Positions 51,928 to 53,391 of a DNA stretch of 64,000 nucleotides are shown piece after piece. The stretch is from an uncultured Acidimicrobiaceae bacterium (GTDB lineage Bacteria; Actinomycetota; Acidimicrobiia; Spongiisociales; SHLN01). The DNA lies in the NCBI GenBank assembly GCA_947259275.1, contig CAMYMH010000027.1:1-64000 (forward strand). Reading direction: 5' to 3'. Positions within the stretch are counted from its first letter, which is position 1. The number at the start of each line of letters is the position of its first letter. The notes under the pieces were generated by a model that did not search any database, was not told where the DNA came from, and was given only the letters and a program-made list of their open reading frames with translations. The position numbers and the translations under genes are program-made.

Positions 51928-52359
51928 GTGTTTCTGGGAGAGCACCAACACACCATCGACCCGAAGGGTCGCGTCGTGCTCCCTAGCCGTTTTCGCGACG
52001 ATCTCGCCAAGGGGTGCTACATCACCAAGGGCCAGGATCGCTGCCTCTTTGTCTTCACTCCCAAACAATGGGAACAAGAAGTCGAGCGAATTCGCTCACT
52101 TCCCCGCACGGATCGCCGGCTTCGCAACTATTCTCGGGTCTTCTTCGCTGGAGCCAGCGACCAGAAACTGGATAAGCAGGGAAGGATTCAGATTCCTGCC
52201 AGCCTGCGCGAATACGCCGGCCTCGAAAAAGAGGTCTGCGTGGTTGGCGTGGGTGAGCGGGTCGAGATTTGGAACGCCGGCACGTGGCAGGATGTCACCA
52301 CCAACGCCGACGCCGAGTACAGCGACATCGAAGAAGCCCTCAGCGAGCAGGGCATTTGA
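51928..52359 (+). CDS. mraZ: Transcriptional regulator MraZ
   Basis: The 143-residue protein has two AbrB/SpoVT-like swapped-hairpin repeats with the paired DxxGR motifs: IDPKGRVVLPSRFRD (about 10-24) and LDKQGRIQIPASLREYA (about 82-98). It forms ring-shaped oligomers that bind the repeats upstream. The GTG start has AGGATGG upstream. It is the first gene of the division and cell wall cluster and ends 22 bases before the anomalous rsmH 5' end. Confidence 0.93.
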   Translation: MFLGEHQHTIDPKGRVVLPSRFRDDLAKGCYITKGQDRCLFVFTPKQWEQEVERIRSLPRTDRRLRNYSRVFFAGASDQKLDKQGRIQIPASLREYAGLEKEVCVVGVGERVEIWNAGTWQDVTTNADAEYSDIEEALSEQGI

Positions 52360-52400
52360 AGCTCAGGAGGACCAAGCAACTGAAAACGTAGGGCAGGGTT

Positions 52401-52488
52401 CATTGCCAGCCCCCCGGATGCCATATGGAAGGCCCCTTACTCCGCCCGCTTCCATTTTGGCGCCAGCGCTCCGGGGGGCTGGCAATGC
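52401..52488. repeat. 18-bp perfect inverted repeat around the expected rsmH start
   Basis: CATTGCCAGCCCCCCGGA (52401-52418) and its exact reverse complement (52470-52487) enclose 51 bases. The right arm ends just where RsmH similarity begins. See the rsmH entry. Confidence 0.9.
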
Positions 52489-53391
52489 CTGGTCGAGCAG
52501 GTAGCCGATCTCTTCCGACCGATCGAAGCCGGTGTCATCATCGACGCCACCTTCGGCGGGGGCGGGCACACCCGGCGACTCCTGGAGGTGCTCGGCCCGG
52601 ACGTCCGGTTCCTAGCTCTCGACCGGGACCCGGCGGCGGAGGACCGCGCCGCCACGCTCGGCCCCAGGGTTCGCTTCGTGGCCTCCGATTTCCGACACCT
52701 CACCGAAGTCACTGAGGAGGCGGATATCGATGCGATCACGGGCGTCTTCTTTGATCTTGGACTTTCCTCTCTACAGCTGGACGACGGCGCGCGAGGTTTT
52801 GGCTTTCGCCGAAGCGGCCCTCTTGATATGCGGATGGGTGCTGGTGAACTCACCGCCGGTGAAATCGTCAACCAGTGGAGCGAAGCGGACCTCCGCCGGG
52901 TCATCGCCCGCTATGGAGAGGAACGCTTCGCCGGCCGGGTCGCCCGCGCCATTGTCGGGGCCCGTCCGATTGAGGACACCGTATCGCTGGCTGAGATCGT
53001 CAAACTGGCGATACCGGCCGCGACCCGTCGCACCGGTGGTCACCCGGCCCGGCGGACCTTTCAGGCCCTCCGCATCGTCGTCAACGACGAGCTGGCCGCG
53101 CTGGAAGCGGGCCTCGACGCCGCCCTCGAGCTCCTCGAGCCCGGAGGTCGCGTCGTGGTGATCTCTTATCACTCCCTCGAAGATCGCATAGTCAAGCGGC
53201 GGCTGGTGTCAGCCTCCTCCTCACCGGATGACACTTCCCTCCCGGTTGTGACACCAGTCGCCGCTCCCGAATACCGCTTGCTGTTCCGCAAGCCGATGAC
53301 TCCCACTGAAGAGGAGATCGCCGACAACCCACGGGCGCGCAGCGCCAAGCTCCGCGCCGCCGAACGAGCTACCCGAGGGAGTGGTGTCTGA
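52489..53391 (+). CDS. rsmH: 16S rRNA (cytosine1402-N4)-methyltransferase, start unresolved
   Basis: From codon 52489 the protein reads LVEQVADLFRPIEAG and then ATFGGGGHTRRLLEVLG, which matches RsmH. The rest is intact (FFDLGLSSLQLDDGARGFGF, HPARRTFQALRIVVNDEL, ISYHSLEDRIVKR). The expected N-terminal HxPVL is replaced: the frame is open back to a TGA at 52381 with no ATG, GTG or TTG before a GTG at 52588, which would remove the SAM-binding GGGGH. The region 52401-52487 is an 18-bp inverted repeat. The first ~10 residues are therefore lost or altered, or initiation uses a rare codon (ATT at 52402 or CTG at 52489). Confidence 0.8.
   Translation: MVEQVADLFRPIEAGVIIDATFGGGGHTRRLLEVLGPDVRFLALDRDPAAEDRAATLGPRVRFVASDFRHLTEVTEEADIDAITGVFFDLGLSSLQLDDGARGFGFRRSGPLDMRMGAGELTAGEIVNQWSEADLRRVIARYGEERFAGRVARAIVGARPIEDTVSLAEIVKLAIPAATRRTGGHPARRTFQALRIVVNDELAALEAGLDAALELLEPGGRVVVISYHSLEDRIVKRRLVSASSSPDDTSLPVVTPVAAPEYRLLFRKPMTPTEEEIADNPRARSAKLRAAERATRGSGV

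Follow-up and report, generated by a model that had tools for sequence, protein, structure and literature searches.

In autogenous leaders of ribosomal-protein genes a conserved part mimics the site that the encoded protein has on rRNA, and such leaders can mask the ribosome-binding site (e.g. PMC7247131). A leader RNA of rsmH (mraW) has also been described, the mraW RNA motif of Actinomycetales (Rfam RF01746). RsmH is the enzyme that N4-methylates C1402 of 16S rRNA; in Escherichia coli its substrate is the 30S subunit and not protein-free 16S rRNA (PMC5053481). A 2026 preprint on Bacillus subtilis tied translation to MraW-modified ribosomes through stem–loops lying over the region of the ribosome-binding site and start codon (PMC13317604). 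Against this background we analyzed the rsmH locus of an uncultured Acidimicrobiaceae bacterium within the window, by which we mean the whole stretch of 64,000 nucleotides under study. Two separate things are present at this locus: a class-wide leader RNA, and a small deletion in one genome. On balance we lean towards a joint reading in which the leader would be under feedback from RsmH and the deletion is a separate event.

The window carries the genes in the order mraZ, rsmH/mraW, an FtsL/DivIC-like gene, a penicillin-binding protein and Mur genes (the last named from their translations), as at the head of an ordinary division and cell-wall gene cluster. Between 52384 and 53391 the RsmH frame stays open and, as a sequence-only reading of this DNA had stated, it has no normal start, the first ATG, GTG or TTG being the GTG at 52588, beyond the GGGGH motif. 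That reading was also right that the HxPV segment is absent, with the Pfam family Methyltransf_5 aligning only from profile position 8, and that a perfect inverted repeat lies directly upstream, the two arms of 18 nt each being 100% complementary at a spacing of 51 nt (Table 1). A complete RsmH domain (PF01795), with HxPV and GGGGH behind a start codon, was not found in the assembly, and neither was a second copy of rsmH in the genome. In searches of the genus and family, residues 1–36 (the inverted repeat) and RsmH proper matched as two separate pieces.

Table 1. Positions of the leader elements and neighboring genes in the window.
Feature	Position	Strand	Remarks
mraZ, GTG start	51928..52359	+	Pfam MraZ, E 4e-37; upstream of leader
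P1 5′ strand, CUGG in most relatives	52395..52398	+	Alignment columns 9–12 with 111–114; four pairs, changes on both sides
P2 5′ strand (left arm of inverted repeat)	52401..52418	+	
P3 5′ strand, GCCA	52420..52423	+	Pairs with 52458–52461; first pair A-U 31, G-C 31
P4 5′ strand, GGAAG	52427..52431	+	Pairs with 52449–52453
Apical loop, GCCCCUUACUCCGCCCG	52432..52448	+	Unpaired part of the element with the highest conservation
CCGCCCG in loop	52442..52448	+	Identical to 16S rRNA 1399–1405; 52445 corresponds to C1402
P4 3′ strand, CUUCC	52449..52453	+	
P3 3′ strand, UGGC	52458..52461	+	
Conserved 3′ bulge, GCCAGCGC	52462..52469	+	Extra hairpin near here in other orders
P2 3′ strand (right arm), with ribosome-binding site and start codon	52470..52487	+	
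Shine–Dalgarno-like run, GGGGGG	52473..52478	+	Relatives: GGAGGG, GAGGAG, GGGAGG
rsmH start codon in relatives	52485..52487	+	Last three bases of right arm; out of RsmH frame here
26-bp deletion site	52487..52488	+	One-base ambiguity; segment present in all aligned relatives of the genus
rsmH (mraW) coding remainder, without HxPV	52489..53391	+	Pfam Methyltransf_5, E 2e-94

The inverted repeat is part of an ancestral, conserved cis-acting leader RNA of rsmH in Acidimicrobiia, spanning ∼52395–52487 in the window. To describe its structure we used an order alignment of 67 representatives, in which the element is 80–91 nt long and folds as one long irregular hairpin, with 20 pairs in P1/P2, 4 pairs in P3 and 5 pairs in P4. 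In this alignment 21 of the 29 pairs change on both sides and 94% of the cells pair; none of 500 shuffles reached any of the observed measures, and registers slid against one another were only 31–53% paired. Covariation is clearest at columns 20–103 (C-G 37, U-A 28) and columns 37–81 (A-U 31, G-C 31). The partner of P1 in the relatives is CCAG at codon 3, P1 is weak in the genus of the window, and the genome of the window does not have the normal P1 partner. Two other explanations of the element were tried and rejected: a transcription terminator, as the stem is not followed by a T run, and a coding extension from the ATG at 52425, in frame with the old start, as the lengths do not vary in threes and 19 of the 67 sequences have in-frame stops. 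Separately, three genomes have contigs that break off in or close to the hairpin, as though the palindrome were difficult to assemble.

The element was found in 124 of the 138 genomes of the order by DNA search, and for the class Acidimicrobiia a covariance model matched 277 of the 395 genomes sampled. Across the phylum, 397 sampled genomes gave 16 matches, every one of them inside Acidimicrobiia. An exact pattern scan returned names that are mostly those of Acidimicrobiia metagenome bins, with a few labelled otherwise. No family of Rfam 15 matches it. In a class set of 30 loci from other families, the element lies directly 5′ of rsmH on the same strand at every locus, and 27 of its 29 pairs change on both sides (0 of 500 shuffles) in an alignment that was fitted to the covariance model. 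The upstream neighborhood is also constant in the order, with mraZ within ∼700 bp upstream at all 67 aligned loci. The element thereby combines what marks a structured cis-regulatory leader, compensatory changes and a fixed same-strand position 5′ of one gene. At six loci representing some families of the class, rsmH is present with no CCGCCC in the ∼400 bases upstream, and in these families the leader is lost or diverged. In many other class families the leader is ∼25–30 nt longer (four loci serve as examples), and these longer leaders hold an extra conserved hairpin, approximately CGGGGAGA(C/A)AUCCCG, placed after the CCGCCCG loop and before the right arm.

The long stem buries both the ribosome-binding site and the rsmH start codon. 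The start codon within the stem is ATG in 56, GTG in 10 and ATA in 1 of the 67 order sequences, so that 66 of 67 carry ATG or GTG at this place. Codon 3 is CAG in 44 of the 67; this codon base-pairs with a CUG lying 5′ to the left arm, so that folding of the RNA shapes the residues with which RsmH begins. Of 30 loci from elsewhere in the class, 15 have an in-frame start candidate at the 3′ end of the hairpin, while a number of others have ATG or GTG at the conserved place out of frame, with rsmH similarity beginning ∼60–170 nt further on. Masking of the rsmH start is therefore the rule within the order, whereas for the class it gives only part of the picture. At nine loci the ATG or GTG at the stem end is kept though it is out of the rsmH frame, and the leader in families of this kind may include a short upstream ORF. 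At two further loci, from two genomes, a short ORF appears to start at the out-of-frame ATG in the stem and to end at a stop codon that overlaps a GTG of the RsmH frame (GTGA), an arrangement that would suggest translational coupling.

Comparison with relatives separates the repeat from the missing start. In a DNA alignment, six relatives have the same ∼87-bp element nearly letter for letter; in them the ATG closing the right arm is the rsmH start, and the nearest begin with M-H-Q-A-P-x-H-x-P-V. An HxPV-type segment is kept in all 66 relatives examined. The genome of the window is without 26 bp directly behind the start codon of the relatives, and it is the only one among those compared with this gap, which removes the HxPV codons and shifts the frame, leaving the old ATG to open an unrelated frame of 76 codons. 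RsmH similarity sets in immediately after the right arm, as the sequence-only reading had seen, because the 26 bp are missing exactly there. Its proposal that the repeat had replaced the N-terminus does not hold, since the relatives carry both the same repeat and a normal start with HxPV, and a rare start codon, its other suggestion, would be of no help with the HxPV codons gone. The comparison with sister genomes that it had called for revealed a normal ATG start followed by HxPV, but with the inverted repeat also present, so the repeat is neither a lesion nor an assembly artefact. What survives of the suspected small rearrangement or assembly error is the loss of start and HxPV through the 26-bp deletion; the inverted repeat falls outside it.

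These data leave different weights on the possible origins of the locus. That the repeat is a mobile or repetitive element inserted into rsmH, which is how a rearrangement might have been pictured, is suggested by its adjoining the point where RsmH similarity starts; however, it is a single-copy element in the genome, no further copies of its arms occur in the window with up to 3 mismatches allowed, it sits in the same place in 124 genomes, fixed at rsmH and not specific to the genome of the window, and the relatives that have it together with an intact rsmH start refute an insertion, to which we give practically no credence. For the deletion, the remainder of rsmH is informative: its dN/dS is 0.20–0.27 against four relatives, compared with 0.19–0.28 among those relatives, and there is no further break across the 295 codons compared. 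An old pseudogene was rejected on the ground that dN/dS is in the same range as in the sisters, and the two observations together indicate that the deletion would be either recent or an assembly error. Whether the gap arose as an assembly or amplification error at the palindrome, in a genome that truly has a normal rsmH, is in our judgment an even call. The gap is confined to this genome, the remaining gene is under normal constraint, and a few assemblies end at or near the palindrome, although the latter is not a statistical test; on the other side, a clean internal deletion of 26 bp is unusual for short-read assembly, and real loss is made possible by the viability of E. coli rsmH knockouts, whose growth is reduced (PMC5053481). 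Should the deletion prove real, this population probably has no active RsmH.

The invariant apical loop, (A)CUCCGCCCG, contains positions 1399–1405 of 16S rRNA, the RsmH target around C1402. CCGCCCG occurs in 66 of the 67 order sequences and 28 of the 30 class sequences, mostly as ACUCCGCCCG, and five of its columns are identical at 67/67 and two at 66/67 in the order alignment. The 16S reference is that of E. coli because the assembly of the window genome has no 16S of its own; in it CCGCCC is found once, at 1399, so that the fourth base is C1402, and compared with the 16S segment ACACCGCCCG the loop agrees at 9 of 10 positions. The chance of a 9/10 match spanning C1402 within a 17-nt loop is 0.4% (window sequence) to 2% (shuffled loop), and that of a 7-mer spanning C1402 is 1.4–4.7%, both to be read knowing that mimicry of 16S was hypothesized after the loop had been seen. 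As a sign of substrate mimicry, this sequence likeness is suggestive, not proof.

Judging from this anatomy, the stem would hold rsmH translation low and the loop would be a putative sensing site. Because the loop copies 16S rRNA 1399–1405, with the substrate around C1402, RsmH itself would be the likeliest signal: surplus RsmH would bind its own leader and keep the stem closed, resulting in autogenous repression and thus in the feedback control of RsmH synthesis that we infer for this leader. Autogenous control through substrate mimicry is the reading we favor, though tentatively and with clearly less than even confidence in the specific claim that the CCGCCCG loop of the leader is a decoding-site decoy to which Acidimicrobiia RsmH binds and which it perhaps N4-methylates. 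The main counter-evidence is the requirement of E. coli RsmH for the 30S subunit (PMC5053481). In addition, the likeness to 16S is short, the start is often outside the stem or out of frame in other orders, and in some families of the class rsmH lacks the motif. Among open-licence papers, we found no precedent for RsmH autoregulation or for methyltransferase mimicry.

Two other kinds of control have to be set against this mimicry. The leader might answer to another protein, a small RNA, a metabolite or opening of the stem by cold or heat, the resemblance to 16S being coincidental. This would fit a likeness that is short and C-rich, and the conserved loop of the Rfam mraW RNA, at the same location, is a different one, ACUUCCCC; yet the loop of the rsmH leader is the most invariant part of the element and an exact match to the site that RsmH modifies, and we consider such a signal rather unlikely. 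Less likely still is methylation-dependent translation, in which the leader would sense the state of the ribosome instead of free RsmH and the loop would have another role: with the start codon in a stem, only 30S subunits methylated at C1402 would initiate well, providing feedback on RsmH synthesis. Both this and mimicry by the loop would give feedback. The stem–loops of B. subtilis cmpA and isp, which lie over the region from the ribosome-binding site to the start and make translation need MraW-modified ribosomes (PMC13317604), are a precedent, and the rsmH start is within the stem here. Sensing of the ribosome state nevertheless leaves the invariant loop unexplained, and part of the class has an rsmH start that is not in the stem. 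Moreover, the stem of the rsmH leader is far stronger than those tested in B. subtilis, where strengthening the stem abolished translation entirely (PMC13317604).

The leader is an RNA family absent from Rfam 15 that is conserved across many families of Acidimicrobiia and hides the start of an rRNA methyltransferase gene that is nearly universal, and it explains the odd rsmH starts in these genomes. The copy of the enzyme's target in its loop points to a specific, readily testable feedback linking control of the mRNA to modification of the ribosome; if the favored reading is true, an rRNA methyltransferase would regulate its own production by means of a mimic of the site it modifies.

Among known systems, the leader resembles the mraW RNA motif, with which it shares a long hairpin in the rsmH/mraW leader downstream of mraZ and a conserved C-rich apical loop. 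It differs from RF01746 in sequence and structure, including that loop, and the start codon is not overlapped in the RF01746 examples read; at its gathering score, the RF01746 covariance model hits neither the window nor any of 59 relatives. At seven RF01746 loci the loop distantly resembles ACUCCGCCC, and the two leaders may be related, or a similar partner may be recognized. Like the autogenous leaders of ribosomal-protein genes, the rsmH leader may have a part that mimics the rRNA site of the gene's product, with the difference that here the product is an rRNA methyltransferase and its binding to the leader is only putative. With the cmpA and isp stem–loops (PMC13317604) it has in common a position over the ribosome-binding site and start and a link to RsmH/MraW activity. 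Those, however, are short stems on other genes, whereas the stem on rsmH itself is long, covaries and bears an invariant loop.
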